Shown here: positions 514 through 22,013 of the stretch, piece by piece
How the letters are laid out: each line of letters opens with the position of its first letter
How positions within the stretch are numbered: the first letter of the stretch is position 1
From: a virus
Reading direction: 5' to 3' (one strand)
Virus record (IMG/VR): IMGVR_UViG_3300046810_000291
Span: 1 to 24,156 of that record
Length of the DNA: 24,156 nucleotides
Notes under the pieces: generated by a model
The model's database searches: none
Seen by the model: only the letters and a program-made list of their open reading frames with translations
Told to the model about the DNA's origin: nothing
Translations under genes and position numbers: made by a program

Positions 514-1284
514 ATGAAGGTATTCATGAGCTGGTCTGGAGCGCGCAGCAAAGCGGCGGCCGAGCTACTTCACGATTGGATTAAGTGCGTCATCCAGGCA
601 TCGCGCCCTTGGATTTCCACGCGCGGAATCGGGCGAGGCGCGGTGTGGTTTTCGGAAATTAATAATGAGCTGAAAGACACCACTGTCGGCATCATTTGCC
701 TGACCCATCAGAACAAAAATGCCCCATGGATTCTCTTCGAGGCTGGAGCATTAGCCAAAGGCCTAACTACGACAAAGGTCTGCACCTTCTTGGTAGATCT
801 CTCTCCAACTGACATCCAAGACCCTCTCGCTCAATTTAACCATACGATGCCAACGAAGGATGGCATGATGAGTCTGGCAGCAACGCTTAACTCGGCCTTA
901 GAAACCCCCTTAGACACAGTGACATTGACGGCTGTCTTTGAAGCTTTTTGGCCGAAATTTGAGGAGAACTTCAGCAAGTTGCTTGAACAGCACCCACAAG
1001 AGGTGGTCGTTGAAGCTCGAAGTGAAAGCAGTATGCTCGAAGAAATTCTCGAAAGTACACGAGGCCTTGCTCAAAGGATGAGATCAATTGAAGACCAGCA
1101 AAGAAACTCGCTCACGCTTGGAAATCAGAGTGCATGGGACGCGGCTGCAAGCAGTGGCATCCGGAATGAGCCATCCGAATTGAAGAATCTCCCGTCGGAT
1201 GACGCGCGAGCAAAGATCAATGCCGCGCTCGAAGCCGCTCGTCGCGCTAGCAGGATGAACGCAAAATCGACTCCTAGTTCGTAA
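514..1284 (+). CDS. TIR-domain protein (predicted NAD-hydrolysing or signalling effector)
   Basis: The protein has 256 residues. Residues 1-130 look like a bacterial TIR domain: the opening strand MKVFMSWSG, an arginine/serine-rich first helix, a BB-loop-like stretch around ISTRGIGRG (35-43), the strand VGIICLT (58-64), and APWILFEAGALAK (70-82) with Glu76 in the position of the catalytic glutamate of TIR NADases. Residues 165-210 are a charged, probably coiled-coil segment, and the tail is disordered-looking. Bacterial TIR proteins often act in anti-phage defence (Thoeris, TIR-STING, TIR-Argonaute) by degrading or cyclising NAD. No recognised partner gene is adjacent, so this would be a stand-alone TIR or one whose partner was lost. 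It runs convergently with the DUF1064 gene, six bases away. The TIR call is firm; the role is inferred. Confidence 0.8.
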   Translation: MKVFMSWSGARSKAAAELLHDWIKCVIQASRPWISTRGIGRGAVWFSEINNELKDTTVGIICLTHQNKNAPWILFEAGALAKGLTTTKVCTFLVDLSPTDIQDPLAQFNHTMPTKDGMMSLAATLNSALETPLDTVTLTAVFEAFWPKFEENFSKLLEQHPQEVVVEARSESSMLEEILESTRGLAQRMRSIEDQQRNSLTLGNQSAWDAAASSGIRNEPSELKNLPSDDARAKINAALEAARRASRMNAKSTPSS

Positions 1285-2362: not shown

Positions 2363-2619
2363 CCTTTCGTTTCGGTTTGGACTTCAGGTTGTTGCTTCGC
2401 TTGGCGCTTTTCGACCCAAGCCACGCGCTCTGCCCTGTTCGCCGGTCGTGCGTAACGCTTGCATGCCTTCGTGCCCCAGTTCACAAACGGATTGATCAGG
2501 GGCGCCATGGTGCTGTCATATCCCACGCATCGGCCCAGCCCTACCCGGGCGTGCTCCGGGTACTCCTTCATCTTGAAGTGCTGGCACAGGGCGCAGACTT
2601 CTTCACCTTCTGCGATCAT
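2359..2619 (-). CDS. Small cysteine-containing phage protein, unknown function
   Basis: This 86-residue protein lies between the replication gene and the nucleotide-hydrolase gene and overlaps both by four bases. It has a CALCQHF motif (Cys9, Cys12, His14), then GRC (Cys31) and ACKRYAR (Cys53), a spacing that could hold one zinc ion. The C-terminal third is highly charged (RAERVAWVEKRQAK). I do not recognise a named family. Small zinc-ribbon-like proteins of this kind are common in the replication operons of betaproteobacterial phages. A DNA or protein contact role is only a guess. Confidence 0.65.
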   Translation of the reverse strand: MIAEGEEVCALCQHFKMKEYPEHARVGLGRCVGYDSTMAPLINPFVNWGTKACKRYARPANRAERVAWVEKRQAKQQPEVQTETKG

Positions 2620-3782
2620 GCGGCCTGCCTTTCGTTCGATGCCGCTATGCCGGCCCGCGCGTTGCCGGCCTTCTCACTCATGGTCCTCATGGCCTCGCGA
2701 AGCTCGTCGCGGCGCGCCTGGCGCTGTTCGTCGGTCAACTGAACGCCTTCCGGAACGGTCGGGGGCATGTACGGCCGCTCGATCTTCTCGGGTGGAAGCG
2801 ACAGGGTGTAGCCCCTGACTTGGTCAGTTGGCATGTCTACCTCGCCCAGCGCGACCCGGATTCGCAGCGCAAATGCCTTCTGTCCTTCGCCAGGGCGCGG
2901 CTCGAGAGGCGGGTCCAGCATCAGGCCAGCAGCCTTGATGCTCTCCGGGGTTTCCCACCATCCGCCAGGCAGCTTTGGCGGCGGGGCTGCATAGGGACGG
3001 ACCTCATCGAGCCAGCGGCCAGCACGCAACCAGGTAGCCGGGTGCGGAATGAACTGCCCGTCATCCTTGCGCCAATCAGCGCCTTCCTTCTGCTTCTCGA
3101 TGGCGTGCAGGATCATCGCCAACAGCATGGCGTCAGGCTTGATCTTCGTCCAAGCTTTCAACGCATCCTGCTTGCCGACGCGCCGCGGGTAGGCAGCCCA
3201 AAACTGGTCGAATGGCTTTGCCTTCTCGGGCTCCGCCTCACCGGCGTCATCGCAGTCGGCGCCAGCTGACGAAGAGGGTTTAGGTTTTCCTTTTTCCTGC
3301 TCCTGTTCCTGCTCTTGGCTTGCAAGGGGCTTCGAAGGGGCTTCGAAGAGACTTCCTTGAGCCCTGTTGGAAAACATGCAGAACGCCTTTGCGTACATCG
3401 CGAAAAAGCCGCCGAGATAAGGGTTTTCCGGGAGCGAGTCGTACTCGTTCTGCACGCCCTTGATGCGCAAATCCTTGTCCTTCAGTTGGTCGGCAATCTG
3501 GAATCGCGCCATCTCCATCACCCAGACCATTTCGCTATCGTCGTCGTAGCGGCAAAACCCTGCTTCGATGCACCCTTGAAGGCCCTTCGAAGCCGCTTCG
3601 AAGCCCAAGCCTATCTCATGAGCGATGAAGGCTTTCGGCACATAGTAGAGGCCGAGCATGTTGGCGTGCGGGCTGGTCAGCAGGTACAGGGCGACAAGTT
3701 GAGCCTCCAAACCTTGCTTGCGCAGCGCCTTGCCGGTCTGGCCGATCCAGAATTTAGGCGATACCTTGCCGTAGTCACGCAT
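2616..3782 (-). CDS. O-like phage replication initiation protein
   Basis: This 388-residue protein has the architecture of lambda-O/DnaD-like replication proteins. The N-terminal part (1-135) starts MRDYGKVSPKFWIG and looks like a winged helix (LEAQLVALYLLTSP). A low-complexity linker follows, with a QEQEQEQEKGK run and a serine/acid stretch (155-190). Next comes the conserved block KPFDQFWAAYPRRVGK (189-204) to FIPHPATWLRAGRWLDE (244-260), shared by many phage replication proteins. The tail (300-388) is charged and helical. The likely role is origin recognition and recruitment of the host helicase; no separate P-like helicase loader is seen. It starts at 3782 and overlaps the antirepressor gene by 8 bases. 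The origin may lie inside the gene, as in lambda, but I saw no clear iterons. Confidence 0.75.
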   Translation of the reverse strand: MRDYGKVSPKFWIGQTGKALRKQGLEAQLVALYLLTSPHANMLGLYYVPKAFIAHEIGLGFEAASKGLQGCIEAGFCRYDDDSEMVWVMEMARFQIADQLKDKDLRIKGVQNEYDSLPENPYLGGFFAMYAKAFCMFSNRAQGSLFEAPSKPLASQEQEQEQEKGKPKPSSSAGADCDDAGEAEPEKAKPFDQFWAAYPRRVGKQDALKAWTKIKPDAMLLAMILHAIEKQKEGADWRKDDGQFIPHPATWLRAGRWLDEVRPYAAPPPKLPGGWWETPESIKAAGLMLDPPLEPRPGEGQKAFALRIRVALGEVDMPTDQVRGYTLSLPPEKIERPYMPPTVPEGVQLTDEQRQARRDELREAMRTMSEKAGNARAGIAASNERQAA

Positions 3783-4603: not shown

Positions 4604-5023
4604 TTACAGTCCAAGTGCAGCCGCCCAACCGCTTTTTGTCGCCTTTGCCTTCTTTTCCCAATGGCGGCTGCGGTGCCGGGCCTTGCGCTGGTCGTGCTTC
4701 TCAGTTCCCTTAATGCGCTTTTCGAACCGGTCGGCGATCTCTTTCTTCGTCAGCCGCGGCAGCGTGTCCGGAACGTCTTCACCTGGGCCGGCGTACCAGA
4801 CCGGCATCGACGGCCCGCGCACCGGGTGTGGCAACCATTTACCAATGTGCAGCTGGCGTTTTTCAGGCTCCTTTGGGTGCATGGCTGCAATCACCCTGCA
4901 TACGGTGGCGCGATGAAGCCCGGTCCTTTGCTCGATCTGCAGCTGGATCGCGGGAAGCGCCGCCACGATTTCCGCAATGGTCTGCGCGCGCTTCGGATTG
5001 ACATATGCCTCGCATTCCGTCAT
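4604..5023 (-). CDS. Phage protein with N-terminal helix-turn-helix
   Basis: This is a 139-residue basic protein. Residues 14-50 (TIAEIVAALPAIQLQIEQRT, then GLHRATVCRVIAAMH) read as a winged-helix or MarR/IclR-like helix-turn-helix with recognition helix near GLHRATVCRVI. The middle carries a WLPHPVRGPSMPVWYAGPGED segment, and the C-terminal third is lysine/arginine-rich (KHDQRKARHRSRHWEKKAK). It overlaps the methyltransferase gene by ATGA and is probably coupled to it. A DNA-binding or regulatory role is likely. I know no specific family name. Confidence 0.65.
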   Translation of the reverse strand: MTECEAYVNPKRAQTIAEIVAALPAIQLQIEQRTGLHRATVCRVIAAMHPKEPEKRQLHIGKWLPHPVRGPSMPVWYAGPGEDVPDTLPRLTKKEIADRFEKRIKGTEKHDQRKARHRSRHWEKKAKATKSGWAAALGL

Positions 5024-5799
5024 GCCGCCTCCCCGAAAATCAACAGACCCTGCGAATCTGCGACTGTCTCCAGGGGGCCCGACATTCGGCGCTCCGATGT
5101 GCCGAAATGCTCAACATCGCTTTCCATGCCGATGTACCCGCGCCCAGCTATGCGCGCAGCCATGCCGATGCTTGCCGAGCCCATGAACGGATCCAGCACC
5201 ACGCCACCCGGGGGCACTGAGTAGCGCACCAGTGGCAGGACTAGTTCGACAGGCTTCTGGGTCGGGTGTAGTGCGCGACCGTGTTCATTCGGCTGGTAGA
5301 TCACGCTGCGCATCATGCGCGGGCCTCCGTCCTCGCTTACGTAGTGCCCGACGTCGATGTGTCCGGTATGGGTCGGACGAGTTTTGCGGCGCACAGTCTT
5401 GGCTGTAGCGTCGTTCGTATACTGCGTGTCGTGGTAAACATCGGCCCAGGCGCCGCGGTAGAACATAACGGCATGCTCGTGCACGCGGCGGAAGCGGTCG
5501 CTATGAAAGCCAGTCCCGTTCTGCTTTTCCCAAACGACGTCCTGGCTGTACTTGAAGCCCAGCGCCTCCAAATGATCGAACAACTGGGCAAGGAAGCGAA
5601 AGCTTCCGAAAACCCAGATCGATGCCACCGGCTTCAGCACGCGCACCACTTCTTCCAGCCAGCCTTCAACTTGGCTATCCCAGTCCAGGCTGGTGTCACC
5701 ATACGGCGGATCGGTAATGCAGACGTCAACGCTGCCCGACGGCAGGACCCGGAGAATCTCCCGGCAATCGCCCAAGTGGAGACTAATTTCGTCGTTCAT
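5020..5799 (-). CDS. Site-specific DNA methyltransferase, beta-class amino-methyltransferase (N6-A or N4-C)
   Basis: The 259 residues carry the catalytic motif IV DPPYG at 30-34 near the N-terminus. The AdoMet-binding motif I, LDPFMGSAS (202-210), is near the C-terminus, preceded by HPTQKP (178-183). This order (IV, target-recognition region, I) defines the beta class. The region between about 95 and 170 should hold target recognition. DPPY is the usual signature of N6-adenine enzymes; N4-cytosine activity cannot be excluded. No restriction endonuclease is adjacent, so it is an orphan methyltransferase that probably protects phage DNA or alters gene expression. It overlaps both neighbours by ATGA. 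Confidence 0.88.
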   Translation of the reverse strand: MNDEISLHLGDCREILRVLPSGSVDVCITDPPYGDTSLDWDSQVEGWLEEVVRVLKPVASIWVFGSFRFLAQLFDHLEALGFKYSQDVVWEKQNGTGFHSDRFRRVHEHAVMFYRGAWADVYHDTQYTNDATAKTVRRKTRPTHTGHIDVGHYVSEDGGPRMMRSVIYQPNEHGRALHPTQKPVELVLPLVRYSVPPGGVVLDPFMGSASIGMAARIAGRGYIGMESDVEHFGTSERRMSGPLETVADSQGLLIFGEAA

Positions 5800-7813: not shown

Positions 7814-9376
7814 TCATGCTGCCCTCCCGACGAACTGCTGCTCATGCTTAAAGTTCGCCTCAATCAGCGCCTTAGCGAGCGGCGGGCACACCGAGTTACC
7901 GATCATGCGCACCTGAGATGCCTTGGACAGCGGCTTGCCGTTGTGCGTGGCTTCGAGGATGTACGTATCAGGAAAGCCCTGAGCGCGCGCCAGTTCGCGC
8001 GGCGTGAGCATGCGCATGCCGATATCTACGATCGCGTACGGCTCGCCGCGGACCATGACTAGACCAATGCGATCCTTAGTGGGGATCGTGTGCATCGGCT
8101 CATGCAGCGACTGATTTTGGCCACCTTCGCTGTAATACTTGATCAAGAAGGCCCGCACTTCACCGAAGTGGAATCCGCTGGCCGCGACGGTGTGTAGTGG
8201 TTCGTCGAGCGACTGCCCGGAGCAGTTGTTGCGGAGCTTGACCAGGTGCGAAGAGATCAACGCGTGATGATCGACCGAGGTGACCGTGCTGAATGGAGCA
8301 TCCATTGAGGCGCCCGGCGTCTCATGGCCGCCGTAGTGCTTGGCCAGGAAAGCGCAGACCAAGGCGAAGTGCCCACCCTTAATCTCGGCGCACTGAGTGC
8401 GCAGCGGCTCGTTGGTGTCAAAGACCCGCTGAGTCGAGCCGTTGGCGTGCTCAGTGATGAACGGCATCACAACTCCGCCGACGTCGACCGTGTATGGATC
8501 CTTCGCCTCGATGACAAACTTCTTCAGGCCTTTGGCAATGCGCGCCAAGGTCTTCTCGGCCAGAGGCTTGGTTCGGCCAAAGATGCTCGCGCACGGAATG
8601 GTCCAGTCAATGCACTCAGCCGCGGTGCGCCAGGGCAGCAGGCCACTTTTGGCGAAGCCGGGCGCCCTTGGGTTGCCATGGGTCGGCACGGGCCACCGGA
8701 TCGGCAGGCCGTCGCGGCGTGCGAAGACGAACAGGCGCTTCCGAATTGTCGGCGTGTTGTGCTCATAGGCGTGAAGAATGCGGTATTCGACCTTGTAGCC
8801 AAGTCCGGCGTGTAGACGCTCCATCGGGAAGTCCGCGCCGAGCGCATCGAAGATCTCCTGCTCGTCAGGATGCCCCTTCGGCAGGCCGGTCGACAGCGCA
8901 GCAATGAATGCCTGGAAGGTTCGGCCCTTCTCGGCAGGGATCGGCTTACCTTCGGCGTCGAGCGGCCCCCAATCGCGGAACTCCTCCACGTTTTCAAGCC
9001 CAATGCAGCGCGGCTTCTGGAAGGCGCCCCACTTCAGCGTGACCCATGCCAGGCCGCGAATCTTCTTTTCGCGTGGCTTGCCGCCCTTCGCCTTGCTGTG
9101 GTGCTTGCAATCTGGACTGAACCAAGCAAGCCCGATGGGGCGATTGTGCGTCACGAAGCCCGGGTGAACTGCGAACACATCCTCCCGGTAGTGTGCGGTA
9201 GCCGGATGGTTTGCTGCGTGCATTGCCAGCGCCTCACCGTCATGGTTGATCGCGACGTCAACCGGGCGGCCGAAAGCCTGCTCGATGCCCTCGGATGCTC
9301 CGCCCCCGCCGGCGAAGTTGTCGATGATGAGTTCGTGGCCCAAGTCGAGGCCCAGAGTCATGAGGTCGCGCTTCAT
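7814..9376 (-). CDS. dcm: DNA cytosine-5 methyltransferase
   Basis: The 520 residues hold the C5-methyltransferase motifs in order. Motif I is FAGGGGASEGIEQAFG (21-36). Motif IV is WFSPDCKHHSKAKGG (85-99), with Cys90 as the likely nucleophile but SPDC in place of the usual PPCQ. Motif VI is GLENVEEF (127-133), motif VIII RKRLFVFARR (212-221), and motifs IX-X are RELARAQGFPD and MIGNSVCPPLAKAL near the end. The long region 290-440 is the presumed target-recognition part and contains repeated (D/N/H)EP-x-x-T units. No cognate nuclease is nearby. It probably modifies phage DNA against host restriction. Start and stop overlap the next gene by ATGA at 9376/9373. Confidence 0.9.
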   Translation of the reverse strand: MKRDLMTLGLDLGHELIIDNFAGGGGASEGIEQAFGRPVDVAINHDGEALAMHAANHPATAHYREDVFAVHPGFVTHNRPIGLAWFSPDCKHHSKAKGGKPREKKIRGLAWVTLKWGAFQKPRCIGLENVEEFRDWGPLDAEGKPIPAEKGRTFQAFIAALSTGLPKGHPDEQEIFDALGADFPMERLHAGLGYKVEYRILHAYEHNTPTIRKRLFVFARRDGLPIRWPVPTHGNPRAPGFAKSGLLPWRTAAECIDWTIPCASIFGRTKPLAEKTLARIAKGLKKFVIEAKDPYTVDVGGVVMPFITEHANGSTQRVFDTNEPLRTQCAEIKGGHFALVCAFLAKHYGGHETPGASMDAPFSTVTSVDHHALISSHLVKLRNNCSGQSLDEPLHTVAASGFHFGEVRAFLIKYYSEGGQNQSLHEPMHTIPTKDRIGLVMVRGEPYAIVDIGMRMLTPRELARAQGFPDTYILEATHNGKPLSKASQVRMIGNSVCPPLAKALIEANFKHEQQFVGRAA

Positions 9377-9822
9377 GCCCGCACCTCGGCGCGCGCCATG
9401 CCGTAGAACGCCGCCATCATCGGGTGATGATCAGGAATGCCGCGCTGCAGCCGCACCTTGAACGGGCCGTCGTCCCGCATGATGTGGATATGGCGCGAAG
9501 GGTCCAGTGTGGCTGCATCTGGCTTCGGGCCCGGGTTCTTGGCTGGGCGTGCTAGGGCGCTGGCAATCAGGCCGGCGACGAATATCACCGCCTCTGACGA
9601 GTTGATCGTCAGGCGAATAAAATCCTCGCCAGCAGCTGCAGCGACCTCGTACTTGCCGCGCAGGTCGACCAGGTACTTGCGCACGCCGGAGGGCCCCACC
9701 TCCAACAACGCGCCGATCTCATCCCGCGTCATCGGCTTGAGCTGCAGCGCCGTGATGAGGGTGCGCATGCGTTCGATCCGGGCCGCGGTGTAGCTATGGG
9801 TTACGTGGTGGGCGCGGGTCAT
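9373..9822 (-). CDS. Phage protein with N-terminal helix-turn-helix, unknown function
   Basis: The 149 residues start with TAARIERMRTLITALQLKPMTRDEIGALLEVGPSGVRKYLVDLRGK, a clear winged-helix pattern with recognition helix near GPSGVRKYLVDL. The ending HIHIMRDDGPFKVRLQRGIPDHHPMMAAFYGM is of a kind seen in phage proteins of this region. It overlaps the methyltransferase gene and the clamp-like gene by ATGA on either side, so the three are coupled. It may regulate the operon or assist the methyltransferase. The family name is unknown to me. Confidence 0.65.
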   Translation of the reverse strand: MTRAHHVTHSYTAARIERMRTLITALQLKPMTRDEIGALLEVGPSGVRKYLVDLRGKYEVAAAAGEDFIRLTINSSEAVIFVAGLIASALARPAKNPGPKPDAATLDPSRHIHIMRDDGPFKVRLQRGIPDHHPMMAAFYGMARAEVRA

Positions 9823-10511
9823 GCCGATCCTCCAGCCGACATACTGGCGAGATCATCCACAACGGGCAGCCTTGCGACCCACGCGGGTGTGGCCGAAATC
9901 GGATCATCGCCGCGCATTGGCATCAATACGCCCACGAACTCTGGGGCGGCCAACATCCGGACAACGGCGCTCGATTGCGAGTCGCCATTCACCGTGAAGA
10001 ACTGCAGGCCGCTATAGCCCCGAAGCTTGATCGCACGCGTCTTGGCCGCCGCGCTCGCGGCTTTCTCGCAGAGAGCGATCAATGGGCCGCCATACAAGCC
10101 GACGAGCCCAGGCTGCAGCGTTTCTTCTTTCGGGATCACACGCTCATAGCGCGGATACTGCGCCTCGACATCAGGCCGGCCCGCCTGGATATAGACCTCA
10201 GCGCTGCCGTTTTCGACCACTGCAAGGCGATCGCCGATCATGACGACAGCGCGTTCATTCGCGAGTCCACTTGCGCAGGCCTGTTGCATCCGAGCGTCGA
10301 AGCGCAGGATCACCTCGTGCTCGCAGACGGCATCCCTGTCATGTATTGCACCCAAGGCATGACCATTCGTTGCACAGATTACAGCCCCGCCGTCGCTATG
10401 CGGACGAACATTGATGGCGTTGAGGTAATAGCGGATGTCGTTCTTCGCCATGAACGGCGCAATGATCGGCAGGAGCTTGGCAGTCAGGCGCAGGTTTGCA
10501 TGCTTATTCAT
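9819..10511 (-). CDS. Compact DNA polymerase III beta-clamp-like protein
   Basis: The start at 10511 is fixed by an ATGA overlap with the preceding gene; the upstream extension is arginine-rich shadow. The 230 residues contain a stretch very like the second domain of bacterial DnaN (NDIRYYLNAINV, then GAVICATNGHALGAI, compare RYYLNG...VATDGHRLA). Further on come AQYPRYERVIPKE (compare FPDYRRVLP) and FVGVLMPMRG near the C-terminus (compare YVVMPMR). The protein therefore appears to cover only domains II and III of the three-domain beta clamp. It would encircle DNA as a processivity factor or compete with the host clamp. Family resemblance is from motif recall, not alignment. Confidence 0.7.
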   Translation of the reverse strand: MNKHANLRLTAKLLPIIAPFMAKNDIRYYLNAINVRPHSDGGAVICATNGHALGAIHDRDAVCEHEVILRFDARMQQACASGLANERAVVMIGDRLAVVENGSAEVYIQAGRPDVEAQYPRYERVIPKEETLQPGLVGLYGGPLIALCEKAASAAAKTRAIKLRGYSGLQFFTVNGDSQSSAVVRMLAAPEFVGVLMPMRGDDPISATPAWVARLPVVDDLASMSAGGSA

Positions 10512-10810
10512 GCTGCACCGCCAGTCTCGAACATGTCGGGGACGCGCGGATCCCGCTGAGGCACGCGGCTCGCAACCGCTGCCGTGGCACAGGCATCCGA
10601 CAGCCCGGTGGCGTCGGCCCGGTCGATGGCGGCGAATAGGGCCCGAACAGATTGATGATGCTGGGCGCTGTCGCAAGCGCGGATGTCGTCGCGCTGCTTT
10701 TGCAGGTGGTCGTAAGCCAGTGTCTTTGCGGCGAGGATTAGCGCCGAAACGGCGGCTGAAGCCTGATCTTCACCGGCGTGCGCCGCCGGCGTGAGTTTTT
10801 CTGCTAACAT
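10508..10810 (-). CDS. Small alanine-rich phage protein, unknown function
   Basis: A 100-residue, mostly helical protein (SAAVSALILAAKTLAYDHLQ, HHQSVRALFAAIDRADATGL) preceded by GGAGAACGC ending at its ATG, an adequate ribosome site. It overlaps the clamp-like gene by ATGA, so it is likely co-translated with it. No known motif is visible. It is the first gene of the tightly coupled block that runs leftward to the cytosine methyltransferase. Confidence 0.6.
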   Translation of the reverse strand: MLAEKLTPAAHAGEDQASAAVSALILAAKTLAYDHLQKQRDDIRACDSAQHHQSVRALFAAIDRADATGLSDACATAAVASRVPQRDPRVPDMFETGGAA

Positions 10811-11303: not shown

Positions 11304-11888
11304 CTACTTCGATGCGGATTCCGATACGCGGGCGACGGTTTGGCGTGCGACTACCTTGGCCATCGCGTCGCGCGCCGCGTTCTCGCAGGCCTGCGCGGCT
11401 TCCGTCAGCTCTTTGTGTGCAGTGAGCAGATCGGCGTCGCTAGCGTCGGCCGGTAGGTTCACGAGAGCCAGCTGCGCCTCACCCGCCTCCTTCATCACTC
11501 GCGGCAGGTGGCTGGAGACGTCTATACGACTGTTCTCGCCAGAGCCCACCTGACGCACTTCGATGCCCATCGGGCAGAACATCTGGCCCAGGCAGCTCAG
11601 GCGCCGCTCGATGGGCAGCGCAGCCAGGATGGAAGGGATCATGTTGGCCGGCAGATTGCCTTCGTCCAGCCAGCGAAAAATCTTCTGCGCCGACTTCCTG
11701 GCGCGGTCGAAAGCGTCGCCGCCGAAGTCAAAAAGGATCTCGGTGGAAGCATCGGCCCCACTTGCCTCGTGCGCCTCAACGATCACGATCGCCACCGCCT
11801 CGCGACTCATGCGGCTGGCGGTGCGCCATGCCTCGATCTCAGCGCGCAGAAGTGCTGCCGGGGCTTGAGTTTGAGGCGCTTGTTTCAT
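11304..11888 (-). CDS. YdaT/CII-like phage regulatory protein
   Basis: The start at 11888 has AGGAAAGAG just upstream; the longer frame to 11957 lacks support. The 194-residue product carries MSREAVAIVIVEAHEASG and then DRARKSAQKIFRWLDEGNLPANMIPSILAALP. The QKIFRW block with the following proline/leucine pattern resembles YdaT of the Rac and CP-933P prophages, which acts as a CII-type DNA-binding regulator. The C-terminal half (LPRVMKEAGEAQLALVNLP onward) is helical and probably multimerises. As in those prophages it follows a YdaS-like Cro gene on the same strand, though a 215-base gap separates them here. Similarity is moderate. Confidence 0.65.
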   Translation of the reverse strand: MKQAPQTQAPAALLRAEIEAWRTASRMSREAVAIVIVEAHEASGADASTEILFDFGGDAFDRARKSAQKIFRWLDEGNLPANMIPSILAALPIERRLSCLGQMFCPMGIEVRQVGSGENSRIDVSSHLPRVMKEAGEAQLALVNLPADASDADLLTAHKELTEAAQACENAARDAMAKVVARQTVARVSESASK

Positions 11889-11949
11889 GACTCTTTCCTT
11901 TTTGAAATGTATTCTTTGCACATCTGAGAACAACAACTGGAAGGGCAAC

Positions 11950-12156
11950 ATGACCAACGCCGCCTTCGTACTGATGAACTGCGATCTGGTCGCTGTTCCA
12001 CTGCGGGTCGGCGCGACCGGCGTGATTACGGTCTACTGCGGAGCTCAGCGGGCGAACGACCTTTTAACTACCGCCGACGCGGAATCTCTGGCTGAGCGCC
12101 CGGCTAGTCCGTTGCACGGCGTCGCGGCGCCGATTCCACTATCCCTAGCGATATAA
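11950..12156 (+). CDS. Possible small gene antisense to the cro-cII gap
   Basis: A 68-residue frame beginning MTNAAFVLMNCDLVAVPLRV lies on the plus strand between the YdaT-like and YdaS-like genes. GGAAGGGCAAC precedes the ATG, a good ribosome site, and third codon positions are strongly G/C, as in real genes nearby. It fills a 215-base stretch with no minus-strand gene and runs 53 bases into the 3' end of the YdaS-like gene in antisense. The sequence shows no known domain. Confidence 0.45.
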   Translation: MTNAAFVLMNCDLVAVPLRVGATGVITVYCGAQRANDLLTTADAESLAERPASPLHGVAAPIPLSLAI

Positions 12157-12319
12157 AGGCCGCAGGGCGGGCCAGCTTCAGAAATTTGAGCCGCGCCTTC
12201 GGTATGCCTAACTTCCTCCACTCAGAGACGGAAGCTGGTTGAATCTCACAAAGGCGCGCTACTTCGGACGTCCCGCCCAGGGCGTCAATGATTTCGTCGG
12301 GCGATTTCTCAGTAGTCAT
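12104..12319 (-). CDS. YdaS-like Cro-type repressor
   Basis: The 71 residues contain DEIIDALGGTSEVARLCEIQPASVSEWRKLGIPKARLKFL, the typical YdaS/Cro-like helix-turn-helix with recognition helix QPASVSEWRKLG. It is divergent from the cI-like gene and separated from it by three operators, the place of cro in lambdoid phages. The ATG at 12319 has no ribosome site but lies seven bases after the -10 of the PR promoter, so the message may be leaderless. ATG codons at 12328 and 12337 overlap or precede that -10, which argues against them. It should repress the cI-like gene or its own promoter. Confidence 0.78.
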   Translation of the reverse strand: MTTEKSPDEIIDALGGTSEVARLCEIQPASVSEWRKLGIPKARLKFLKLARPAAFISLGIVESAPRRRATD

Positions 12320-12326
12320 GAACACC

Positions 12327-12355
12327 ATTTTAGGCATGCCTAAACATAAACGCAA
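12327..12355 (-). promoter_or_regulatory. Leftward early promoter (PR equivalent)
   Basis: On the minus strand TTGCGT (12355-12350) and TAAAAT (12332-12327) are 17 bases apart. The spacer ends with TTAGGCATGCC, so the first operator (12330-12343) lies between and over the -10. The same spacing and operator register recur at the 19905 promoter. Predicted start of transcription is at or next to 12319, the A of the YdaS-like start codon. Confidence 0.7.
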
Positions 12356-12400
12356 GCATTTTTAGGCTTACCTCAATCAAAAAGATTTAGGATTACCTAA
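12330..12400. promoter_or_regulatory. Triple operator between cro-like and cI-like genes
   Basis: Three 14-bp sites fit TTAGG-N4-CCTAA: TTAGGCATGCCTAA (12330-12343, perfect palindrome), TTAGGCTTACCTCA (12362-12375) and TTAGGATTACCTAA (12387-12400). Centres are 32 and 25 bases apart. The first overlaps the leftward promoter. The third ends on the first base of the cI-like start codon, so occupancy would block that gene. This is the three-site arrangement of lambda OR. The binding protein is presumably the S24 repressor at 12400, with the YdaS-like protein as competitor. Confidence 0.8.
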
Positions 12401-13128
12401 TGGAAGAATGGAAACAAAGACTGACTCAAGCGCGCAAAGCTAAAGGGCTTAGCAAGACCGCGTTCGCTAAAGCCGTAGGCGTGTCCAACCCGACCGCAAC
12501 AGATTGGGAAAAGAGCGTTGAGGACGGCGGCATCAAAGAGATTTCAGGCTCAAATCTCGCAAAAGCGGCAGAGACGCTTGATGTCGACTCAACATGGATC
12601 TTGCTTGGTAAGGGTCGCGGCCCTGGATCGCCTGACGCGTCCGAGGTAGATATTAAGCACCTGCTACCTGGGGCAATCGGAGTCCGGGCAGTGGATGAAG
12701 ATGACCCCTCTCTGACACACATCCCTAAGGTCAAACTCAAGCTTTCGGCGGGCATCACTGGCTTCGACGCCGAGCCGGAGCGTTTTGATGGCTCAACGCT
12801 CACGGTGCCGACCTCTTGGCTGAAGAGGCATGGGTACATCCGCGAAAAGCTGCTTGCCACTCGAGTTGGCGGCGAAAGCATGGAAACCACGCTTTACGAT
12901 GGCGACGTAGTGATCGTCAACACTGCCGACACCACAAAGGTCGATGGTGCGGTCTATGCGTTCAACTACGAAGGCGAAGCGGTGATCAAGCGCCTGGCAC
13001 GTGATGCCGGCCAATGGTGGCTAACCTCGGACAATCCGGATCAGCGGAAGTACCACCGCAAGCTGTGCAAGGGCGGCGATTGCATAATCGTAGGACGTGT
13101 AGTCCGCAGGGAAAGCGACAGGCTTTAA
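12400..13128 (+). CDS. CI-like repressor: HTH plus S24 self-cleaving peptidase
   Basis: The 242 residues have an N-terminal Cro/C1 helix-turn-helix (about 3-68; LSKTAFAKAVGVSNPTATDW holds the HTH) and a C-terminal LexA/CI-type S24 peptidase domain. Ser160 (GGESMETTLYDGD) and Lys197 (YEGEAVIKRL) form the catalytic pair. The Ala117-Gly118 bond in LKLSAGITGF is the probable self-cleavage site. RecA filaments should therefore trigger cleavage and induction. Its ATG overlaps the third operator; AGGA inside that operator could serve as ribosome site, or the message may be leaderless. It is the lysogeny master repressor and is followed, with a TAATG overlap, by a small companion gene. Confidence 0.92.
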   Translation: MEEWKQRLTQARKAKGLSKTAFAKAVGVSNPTATDWEKSVEDGGIKEISGSNLAKAAETLDVDSTWILLGKGRGPGSPDASEVDIKHLLPGAIGVRAVDEDDPSLTHIPKVKLKLSAGITGFDAEPERFDGSTLTVPTSWLKRHGYIREKLLATRVGGESMETTLYDGDVVIVNTADTTKVDGAVYAFNYEGEAVIKRLARDAGQWWLTSDNPDQRKYHRKLCKGGDCIIVGRVVRRESDRL

Positions 13129-17169: not shown

Positions 17170-18288
17170 ATGCCAACAAATTCGAATCTAACACTGCACC
17201 GCATCCGGGAGCAGAGAACTACTTACGAGCGAAGCAGGCGCAAACAGTTCCTGCATTCGAAGCGTCGCCCTGGACGTCAACCTGTTGGCGAGTACAACTG
17301 GCGCATCCAGCGTTTGGTCATCGACGTTCCGGAGGAGTTGGACTTAAAGCACCATCGCGATGCAACTCTCGGGCTTGCTGCAGCGTGCCGCACAAATTGT
17401 TTGGTTGCAAAGAAGCGAACACTACTTGATTTCAGCAATACTAAACTCATATCGTCAGCAGCAATCCTGTATCTAGTGGCCGAGTTTGATCGTTGTCGCA
17501 GGGTTGCTGGCGTTAGGATGTTGTCCGGCACATACCCGCAGGACCGGCGGCTTCATCGCCAGATGCGAGACAGCGGCTTCTTCGATGTGCTTGGAGTGAA
17601 GGCTTCGTTGGACGCGGCCCCAAAGGTATTCCCGTTGGAGTACATTAAGGTGCAGAGTGGCACGCAAGCAGATGGAAGGTTGGCGGTTGAGTTGAGGCGA
17701 GCGTTGTTTGGCCCTCGAGAGGAACTTCTACCAAAGGATAAAAAAGGTTCATTCTTCCGTTGTTTGACAGAGGCCATGACGAATGTGGCTCAGCATGCAT
17801 ACCCTGACGACTGGGATGTGGGAAGTATCAAGGTCATCAAAAAGGGCTGGTGGATGTTGGGTCACATCAACAAGCTCCGGAAGGAACTGAAGATTATGAT
17901 CGTTGACCAAGGCATCGGCATACCGAGGAGTTTGCCTCGTACTCACAAAGACATACTGCCTACGTTGCTTGCCGCTCTTCAGCTCGAAGTAAGCGATGGC
18001 GCGATGATTGAGGCTGCAATGGAAGTCGGCCGGTCACGGATGGGGCAGACCCATCGAGGAAAGGGGCTTAATGATCTCAAGCAAATCATTGACTTATGCA
18101 GAGATGGGACTCTACGGATTCTGAGCAAGAAAGGGGAGTACGTATATCGCGTGAGGGACGGTAGATCGGTTTCACTTGCGCGAGGCCATGATGTGAGCCT
18201 AAATGGTACACTCGTAGAGTGGACAATTCCACTTGATGCAATATCGCCCCTCTTAGCTTTAGACGAGGGCGGGACTGAGGAAAAATGA
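17170..18288 (+). CDS. STAS-GHKL ATPase fusion, first gene of a three-gene system
   Basis: Residues 1-45 are basic. Residues 80-145 read as a STAS domain: TLLDFSNTKLISSAAILYLV, then RCRRVAGVRML and the closing DSGFFDVLGV. Residues 190-355 are a GHKL/HATPase_c domain with N-box TEAMTNVAQHAYP (Glu201, Asn205), G1 box DQGIGIP (246-252) and G2 box RGKGLNDL (296-303). No histidine phosphoacceptor domain is seen, so it resembles anti-sigma-factor kinases of the SpoIIAB/RsbW type fused to their own antagonist fold. It overlaps the DUF4325 gene by ATGA. Such ATPases usually phosphorylate or sequester a STAS partner; here the partner would be the next gene product. Confidence 0.8.
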   Translation: MPTNSNLTLHRIREQRTTYERSRRKQFLHSKRRPGRQPVGEYNWRIQRLVIDVPEELDLKHHRDATLGLAAACRTNCLVAKKRTLLDFSNTKLISSAAILYLVAEFDRCRRVAGVRMLSGTYPQDRRLHRQMRDSGFFDVLGVKASLDAAPKVFPLEYIKVQSGTQADGRLAVELRRALFGPREELLPKDKKGSFFRCLTEAMTNVAQHAYPDDWDVGSIKVIKKGWWMLGHINKLRKELKIMIVDQGIGIPRSLPRTHKDILPTLLAALQLEVSDGAMIEAAMEVGRSRMGQTHRGKGLNDLKQIIDLCRDGTLRILSKKGEYVYRVRDGRSVSLARGHDVSLNGTLVEWTIPLDAISPLLALDEGGTEEK

Positions 18289-18623
18289 AAGTGATCAGCA
18301 TTGCGAAACAATTTTCGCCCTACCCTGTCGGTAGGTTTTATGAGGACGGCCCCGACAGCGGCCAACGATTCCGAGAGGAATTCCTTGAGCCCCCGTTGTC
18401 CGCCGGAGATAGCGTGGAAGTCCACCTAAGCGGCACAGAAGGATTCGGATCCTCCTTTCTGGACGAAGCCTTCGGCGGCGTTGTGCGAAAGTTCAGGTTC
18501 ACGGACGAAGATGTCCGTAAGCGCCTGATTTTGGTTGCAGATGATGATCCGGTTGACCAGAGCTACCTTAACGAGACGATGGAATACATAGCCGATGCCT
18601 GCCGCGACAACAGGCGCAAGTGA
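18285..18623 (+). CDS. DUF4325 STAS-like protein
   Basis: The 112 residues contain the DUF4325 pattern: KQFSPYPVGRFYEDGPDSGQ at the start, DSVEVHLSGTEGFGSSFLDEAFGG (42-65) and then VVRKFRF. In STAS-type partner-switching proteins a serine in the equivalent helix start is phosphorylated; Ser56 or Ser57 would be the candidates. DUF4325 genes commonly sit next to GHKL ATPase genes, as here, with an ATGA overlap. It is probably the direct substrate or partner of the ATPase encoded upstream. Confidence 0.8.
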   Translation: MKVISIAKQFSPYPVGRFYEDGPDSGQRFREEFLEPPLSAGDSVEVHLSGTEGFGSSFLDEAFGGVVRKFRFTDEDVRKRLILVADDDPVDQSYLNETMEYIADACRDNRRK

Positions 18624-20950: not shown

Positions 20951-21087
20951 TCCGCCGGCTCGCCCTCTTCCTCGTCGGCTTTTGCGTCTACCTGATCTTG
21001 CTGGCCGAAGTGCAGCGTCAGGACGAAGTGGCGCAAGACCAGATCGAGCGACTGCAGCTGGAACGCATTGCACGCGTTGCCCAATAA
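20947..21087 (+). CDS. 46-residue membrane peptide with coiled-coil tail
   Basis: It starts in an ATGA overlap. The N-terminus is a membrane helix (MIRRLALFLVGFCVYLILLA), followed by a charged amphipathic helix (EVQRQDEVAQDQIERLQLER). The architecture resembles small phage proteins placed before recombination genes. The three overlapping peptides are likely made in step. Confidence 0.62.
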   Translation: MIRRLALFLVGFCVYLILLAEVQRQDEVAQDQIERLQLERIARVAQ

Positions 21088-21116
21088 CGAAAACGACAAT
21101 ACAAGGACCCCAAGAG

Positions 21117-22013
21117 ATGTTCAACAATCTGCAGCTGTACCGCCTTCCTGCCCCGTACAGCCTGACCGCTGATCAGCTGGCAACCGCTCTGCTCCCACAG
21201 ATGTTCACCCCGGCGTCGAGCAATGAACTGCTCCGCCAAGGCTGGGACCGTCCGCGCGGCGAAGACGGCGCCCTTGTTCATGTAGTGAACGGCCAATACC
21301 TGCTCAAACTGGTGACCGAAAAGAAGATCCTGCCATCGAAAGCGGTGAAGCAGCGCGCCGACGAGATGGCAAACAAGCTCGAAGACGAACAAGGCTTCAG
21401 GCCCGGGAAGAAGGCCATGAAGGAACTGCGAGAGCGCGCCGCCGATGAGATGCTCCCGAAGGCCTTCCCTGTGCGCTCGGCCCTGAATGTCTGGATTGAT
21501 CCCACGAACGGATGGCTTGCCATCGACGACGGTAGCCCATCGAAGGCCGATGACGTGATTAAGCTGCTGCTGGAGGCGGTCGACAAGCTGCCGCTGGAAT
21601 CGCTGCGCGTCCAACGCTCACCAGTCGCAGTGATGACCGGCTGGCTGGAAGCGGACGAGGCGCCGTACAACTTCACGATCGACCAGGACGCAACCCTGCG
21701 CGCGACCGGCGAGAGCAAAGCGCAGGTCGGGTACAAGCGGCACACCCTGGATCCCGACGAAATGCGCCGCCACATTGCGGCCGGCAAGCAGTGCTCGCGT
21801 CTGGCGATGACTTGGAACAGCCGCATTTCTTTCGTACTGACCGACACCCTTGCGATCAAGTCGATCAAGCCGCTCGACGTCCTCAAGGAAAACGAAGCCG
21901 TCACTTTCAACGAGACCGATCGCTTCGACAACGATTTTGCCCTGATGACTGGCGAGCTGGCAAAGCTGCTGGCCGACCTGGTAGAAGCCCTCGGCGGCGA
22001 GGCTCAAGGATGA
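21117..22013 (+). CDS. rdgC: Recombination-associated protein RdgC
   Basis: The 298-residue product, starting MFNNLQLYRLPAPYSLTADQ, matches RdgC along its length: GWDRPRGEDGALVHVVNGQYLLKL, KILPSKAVKQRADEMANKLE, RSALNVWIDPTNGWLAIDDGSPSKAD, LDPDEMRRHIAAGKQCSRLAM and the helical end. RdgC forms a ring dimer on double-stranded DNA and blocks RecA filament formation and strand exchange. Length is standard (about 300). AAGGA lies nine bases before the ATG; the longer in-frame start is rejected. In a prophage it may temper RecA during replication and recombination. Confidence 0.95.
   Translation: MFNNLQLYRLPAPYSLTADQLATALLPQMFTPASSNELLRQGWDRPRGEDGALVHVVNGQYLLKLVTEKKILPSKAVKQRADEMANKLEDEQGFRPGKKAMKELRERAADEMLPKAFPVRSALNVWIDPTNGWLAIDDGSPSKADDVIKLLLEAVDKLPLESLRVQRSPVAVMTGWLEADEAPYNFTIDQDATLRATGESKAQVGYKRHTLDPDEMRRHIAAGKQCSRLAMTWNSRISFVLTDTLAIKSIKPLDVLKENEAVTFNETDRFDNDFALMTGELAKLLADLVEALGGEAQG

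Follow-up and report, generated by a model that had tools for sequence, protein, structure and literature searches.

A phage-encoded relative of the bacterial beta clamp with a largely intact docking pocket and no known ring interface, a candidate ringless pocket mimic

We describe a short phage protein, here called the mini-clamp, which belongs to the family of the bacterial beta sliding clamp (DnaN), appears to keep most of the groove in which clamp-binding motifs dock, and has lost both known ring-closing interfaces. A ring is the feature usually held essential to a sliding clamp. The gene lies in a 24,156-base virus record, the whole of which was analysed and is called the window below. 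The explanation that we favour, and to which we give about an even chance, is that the mini-clamp is a non-ring pocket mimic that would titrate or recruit clamp-binding proteins off DNA.

A shortened relative of the bacterial beta clamp

The window protein is a relative of DnaN, and the kinship is not due to chance. The protein (P0002) is encoded by an open frame of 230 aa on the minus strand, running from 10511 to 9819. The scores of the single sequence were modest, with matches to NCBIfam TIGR00663 (E 9.5e-5), the PHROG processivity factor phrog_947 (E 1.6e-6) and the Pfam clamp central domain (E only 0.16). A profile of 46 aligned relatives matched the E. coli beta clamp (b3701) at E about 9e-24, bearing out the DnaN homology proposed earlier in a sequence-only reading of this DNA, and its best match among solved bacterial beta clamps reached 2.6e-24. 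The clamp central domain (PF02767) was matched individually by 30 of the 46 members. AlphaFold predicted a clamp fold for the monomer (mean pLDDT 93.6, pTM 0.87), and the matches listed for this model in Foldseek and VIA-align were beta clamps. The fold-search rows listed were bacterial beta clamps, and PCNA was absent among the matches listed, which excludes nothing. The three motifs quoted in the sequence-only reading were found at residues 27-56 (RYYLN...ATNGHALGAI), 119-129 (YPRYERVIPKE) and 195-201 (VLMPMRG) of the 230-aa protein.

The gene was found to be under purifying selection. The comparison of the window gene with its relative in record L002 gave dN 0.06 and dS 1.20, more distant relatives gave dN 0.15-0.25 with dS near or past saturation, and dN/dS was about 0.05-0.1. 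In an unrooted tree of 48 sequences, the short proteins and DnaN fell on opposite sides of one 100/100 branch, and this split is consistent with a single origin of the truncation.

Models and alignments indicate that the mini-clamp consists of domain II, only the C-terminal half of domain III and a 30-residue tail; the proposal of domains II and III of DnaN thus stood for domain II and for one half of domain III. Domain II of the clamp fold is predicted at residues 8-118 (10158..10490, minus strand) from the AlphaFold secondary structure, and it aligned to E. coli beta ~130-240. The linker between domains II and III (YPRYERVIP) leads in the model into a single strand-helix-three-strand unit, which the tail follows, whereas DnaN has two such units. 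This beta-alpha-beta-beta-beta unit (residues 132-201; 9909..10118, minus strand) corresponds by model and alignment to E. coli ~318-366. In an alignment of the relatives with 12 DnaN sequences, including that of E. coli, the relatives were empty over E. coli 1-120 and most of ~251-317, and were filled again from ~318 to 366. VIA-align placed residues 1-201 of the window model over E. coli 121-366 (chain 6fvl_D; 178 aligned, Z 15.2, rmsd 3.1), and residues 1-178 of the model of a 178-aa Yersinia prophage relative (AlphaFold, pLDDT 91.3) over E. coli 126-366 (165 aligned, Z 13.4, rmsd 2.8). In both runs the aligned residues were fewer than the span, and therefore ~70 target residues had been skipped. 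In domain II and the C-terminal half of domain III, the mini-clamp resembles DnaN both in fold and in sequence, and it shares the pocket residues; DnaN itself has ~366 aa in three domains, and the mini-clamp lacks domain I, the first half of domain III and the seven interface residues considered below.

The tail (residues 202-230, PAW...DDLASM; 9822..9908, minus strand) forms two short helices in the model and has no counterpart in DnaN; many mini-clamps carry such an extra C-terminal tail. It may cap the edge exposed by the deletions. A recurring P-x-W motif was seen after MPMR in relatives, where the tail is predicted to be ordered, and the shortest members have no tail. Because the 230 residues are made up of a core of ~200 and this tail, the PCNA-like length pointed out in the sequence-only reading is a coincidence.

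Docking pocket and ring interfaces

The pocket and dimer-interface residues of E. coli beta, as catalogued in a review (PMC11139829), were located in the alignment. All seven dimer-interface residues (I78, R103, F106, I272, L273, E298 and E304) were missing in 36 of 36 aligned relatives, and all seven fall in the deleted parts, namely domain I and the first half of domain III. The 18 pocket positions were all aligned, with a mean identity to E. coli of 73% compared to 17% elsewhere (all columns, 36 relatives). Peptide patterns that include R152, L155 and T172 had served to retrieve the relatives, and the contrast was recomputed without these columns. Pocket identity to E. coli was then 68% compared to 14% elsewhere, and this contrast was reached by 0 of 200,000 permutations, a number that is only indicative, as columns were treated as independent. 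Pocket conservation as a search artefact was rejected, since the contrast held after the three columns had been dropped. The equivalent contrast in the DnaN set was 88% for the pocket and 37% elsewhere.

In the window protein, 14 of the 18 pocket residues were identical to those of E. coli. On the minus strand, RYYL (10422..10433) supplies R27 and L30, equivalent to E. coli R152 and L155; ATNGHAL (10353..10373) supplies T48, G50, H51 and L53, equivalent to T172, G174, H175 and L177; YPRYERVI (10134..10157), in the domain II-III linker, supplies the residues equivalent to P242, R246 and V247; and VLMPMR (9912..9929) forms the C-terminal pocket strand, equivalent to V360-R365. The alignment supports a largely intact clamp-binding-motif pocket. 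Members of the window clade have an almost complete subsite I, while subsite II has been altered in part (N320 to G, Y323 to L), and these changes make the affinity or specificity for the full motif uncertain. The sequence-only reading had named two grounds for giving up a clamp, the lack of its fold or the joint absence of the pocket and of ring assembly; the fold and, by alignment, the pocket are present, and the known ring interfaces are absent.

Genomic setting and distribution

The mini-clamp gene belongs to an early operon with translational coupling, located behind CI/Cro/CII-type regulators. Its start overlaps the stop of an upstream 100-aa ORF (10508..10810, minus strand) in an ATGA, in agreement with the ATGA-coupled start noted earlier, where the minus strand had been left unstated; a relative of this ORF adjoins the mini-clamp in L002. 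Further ATGA overlaps join the mini-clamp gene to a downstream 149-aa ORF (9373..9822, minus strand), winged-helix-like by eye, and that ORF to a C5-cytosine DNA methyltransferase gene (7814..9376, minus strand; PF00145, 1.1e-21). Relatives of the 149-aa ORF adjoin the mini-clamp on its 3' side throughout the close clade, and a cytosine methyltransferase is also found two genes 3' of the mini-clamp in Pseudomonas TC7 and CP137442. The operon was placed as early because of a lysogeny switch at 11304..13128, comprising a CII-like gene (11304-11957, minus strand), a Cro-like gene (12104-12355, minus strand) and a CI-like S24 repressor (12400-13128, plus strand). The record also encodes an integrase, an N6/N4 DNA methyltransferase (5020..5799, minus strand; PF01555, 1.7e-37), a replication initiator/helicase-loader-like protein (2616-3782, minus strand) and RdgC (20982..22013, plus strand). 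The window is part of a temperate phage. A split gene with a separate domain I was considered and rejected, the upstream 100-aa ORF having no Pfam or PHROG match.

Two further loci of the window were recorded. A TIR-domain protein at 514-1284 (plus strand) matched the PADLOC TIR-TM model (2.8e-58) and is a possible prophage-carried defence gene. At 17170-18623 (plus strand), between CI and the integrase, a gene for a STAS and histidine-kinase-like ATPase protein is followed by a DUF4325 STAS-like gene.

The family is present in hundreds of phages. A profile search of viral contigs gave 279 matches, some of them perhaps full-length clamps, and one query found relatives in 278 phage records. Bacterial genomes also hold relatives, and several weaker matches there were ordinary DnaN. 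Carriers include Dhillonvirus TheodorHerzl (E. coli K-12; gp07), Skatevirus Salmonella LPST10 (gp37), Hafnia yong1 (gp27), Pseudomonas TC7 and Riah, Burkholderia BcepC6B and Xanthomonas Rb1. Family members are already on record, by automatic annotation only, either as 'DNA polymerase III beta subunit' or with a RusA label. The literature searched yielded no account of the halved domain III, of the ring interfaces lost throughout the family or of what the protein does, although an older viral-replicase census may mention the family.

The gene order in yong1 is cI-cro-cII-miniclamp-O-like-P-like. In Rb1 the mini-clamp lies between RdgC and SSB, and in BcepC6B directly 3' of a phage DNA polymerase. 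RdgC was found in 11 of 24 mini-clamp records, and several divergent ones have it close to the mini-clamp (L010, L035, L039, L023, L008 and L020 are listed as RdgC records besides the window). A ParB-like gene was seen a few genes 5' of the mini-clamp in Salmonella Skatevirus and Pseudomonas phages (L129, 23181-24914; L009, 5077-7660; L013, 1928-4660). Searches of 23 carrier records, in which the controls were detected, gave no clamp-loader match and no DnaN match over the cut-off; some of these records are fragments, and absence is not proof. A search for family A polymerase was positive in 1 of the 23.

Candidate functions of the mini-clamp

In the favoured explanation, evolution would have preserved the docking groove for clamp-binding motifs (consensus QL[SD]LF) and dropped both known ring-closing interfaces, and the mini-clamp would act off DNA as a ringless mimic of the clamp pocket, binding proteins that carry such motifs. 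Its partners might be titrated from host clamps, with clamp-loader delta, Pol III alpha, Hda, MutS/MutL and Pol IV as candidates, or clamp-binding proteins might be handed to phage replication complexes; the gene belongs to the early operon, in phages that rely mainly on the replisome of the host. The affinity of monomeric beta for delta is about 50-fold that of the dimer, and the monomer gives no processivity (PMC11139829); on this ground a pocket outside a ring should compete well. Strong titration of delta or alpha would harm phages that replicate with host Pol III, which makes a pure poison unlikely. We infer the monomeric state, the binding to clamp-binding motifs, the identity of the partners and the benefit to the phage. 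The sequence-only reading had offered a phage clamp or a decoy for clamp-binding proteins, and the decoy has survived every test run, whereas its PCNA/gp45-like trimer is not supported. The mini-clamp would share with the clamp inhibitor Gp168 of phage Twort (PDB 7evp) a target in the clamp network of the host; Gp168 binds the clamp, whereas the mini-clamp resembles the clamp's own docking pocket.

Clamp-binding-like motifs were found at the C-termini of phage methyltransferases. The window N6/N4 methyltransferase ends in ...DSQGLLIFGEAA, with QGLLIF near its C-terminus (5035..5052, minus strand), and homologues in other mini-clamp phages end in ...PQLSLFEEVA, ...PQRDLFEEVA, ...RQIDLFAEAP, ...RQSDMFAEPA and ...AQLDIFRDAKEQIA. 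The methyltransferases listed with that of the window for near-perfect motifs (QLSLF, QRDLF, QIDLF, QSDMF) are those of L003, L004, L016, L018, L138, L141, L057 and L033. After dereplication, 11 of 12 N6/N4 methyltransferases of mini-clamp phages carried the motif in their last 22 residues, compared to a shuffle expectation of 0.23. The same motif was present in 11 of 84 relatives from contigs without a detected mini-clamp, where one could lie beyond the fetched flanks (Fisher p about 1e-7, with a regular expression chosen after the first examples, queries drawn from the mini-clamp set and related sequences). Motif and mini-clamp are thus linked by association only. The occurrence of the motif in phages without a detected mini-clamp suggests that the host clamp is also a target, and the tails suggest that phage DNA methylation may be coupled to replication through the host clamp or the mini-clamp. 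Over all ORFs of the carrier phages, 54 clamp-binding-like motifs were seen compared to 44.6 expected by shuffle; a general enrichment was rejected on this count, barely above shuffle, and the argument is therefore confined to the methyltransferase tails. The linker of the initiator/helicase-loader-like protein contains QGSLF (3345..3359, minus strand). As a general feature of the initiators this motif was rejected, being kept in L132 (81% identical) and missing in the 30%-identical L133.

These motifs bear on an alternative in which the pocket mainly binds the phage's own clients, the N6/N4 methyltransferase tail and the QGSLF initiator, and serves as a scaffold linking methylation or initiation to recombination proteins like RdgC. 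The frequency of the motif in the methyltransferases of mini-clamp phages, QGSLF in the initiators of the window and L132, and the RdgC genes of nearly half the carriers speak for it. However, the methyltransferases with the motif and without a detected mini-clamp indicate that it may serve the host clamp, motifs over all ORFs are barely above chance, and many carriers have no such methyltransferase nearby; we hold a scaffold to be rather unlikely. A non-ring processivity factor resembling herpesvirus UL42, a monomer touching DNA directly and tethering a polymerase through the pocket, would suit a clamp fold with a pocket and no known ring interface. Non-ring viral clamps such as UL42 exist (PMC9690074), offering a possible parallel of a viral clamp-fold protein without a ring, DNA binding is retained by monomeric beta (PMC11139829), and the polymerase neighbour in BcepC6B fits a processivity role equally well. 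Unlike UL42, the mini-clamp has no strong basic bias as judged from sequence: the window protein has a net charge of about 0 and a pI of 7.0, many relatives are neutral or acidic, and the inner helices have no consistently basic set. Moreover, no DNA polymerase partner was found in most carriers (22 of 23, family A only searched), and we consider this role quite improbable.

A ring seems improbable, given the loss of the two known interfaces and the lack of any phage loader among the carriers searched. The sequence-only reading had expected a two-domain subunit to close as a trimer in the manner of PCNA or T4 gp45, with which the mini-clamp would share the general clamp fold and, by coincidence, shares a similar length; the mini-clamp instead has 1.5 domains and is kin specifically to bacterial beta. 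A loaded ring might still form as a trimer, or as a non-canonical tetramer (4 x 1.5 = 6 domains), with half-domains pairing in trans, as the open edge of the half domain could pair with a second copy and the tail is ordered in the model. Against this stand the deletion of the seven listed interface positions in every aligned relative and the lack of a clamp-loader match in the 23 carriers, though a host loader could serve, and we regard such assemblies as very improbable. The remaining reading follows from a database name. The window protein matched PHROG 3007 (E 2.5e-21, positions 7-188 of 190), as did 46 of 46 aligned members, and this family is named "RusA-like Holliday junction resolvase"; the label is carried by many phage records, such as NC_054645 gp37 and PQ569993 gene 78. 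None of the 46 members had a Pfam RusA match, whereas the majority matched the clamp central domain, the listed matches, by sequence and by structure, are beta clamps, and the conserved residues are those of the clamp pocket. The name is very probably wrong, and a resolvase can be practically dismissed.

For the family as a whole, we tentatively propose, at somewhat below an even chance, that a single ancestral truncation gave rise to a ringless pocket mimic that is now found in hundreds of temperate and lytic proteobacterial phages, where it would vie with the host clamp for clamp-binding-motif proteins of every kind and thereby steer host replication and repair phage-ward, with the methyltransferases bearing C-terminal clamp motifs as co-evolved clients. 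The analysis corrects the resolvase label in many phage records. In a large, conserved phage family that keeps the pocket and has lost both known ring interfaces, the clamp's role as a hub would be uncoupled from processivity. If the mini-clamp binds clamp-binding motifs, it would be a natural, genetically encoded competitor for the target site of griselimycin-type antibiotics and would represent a new route by which phages manage host replication.
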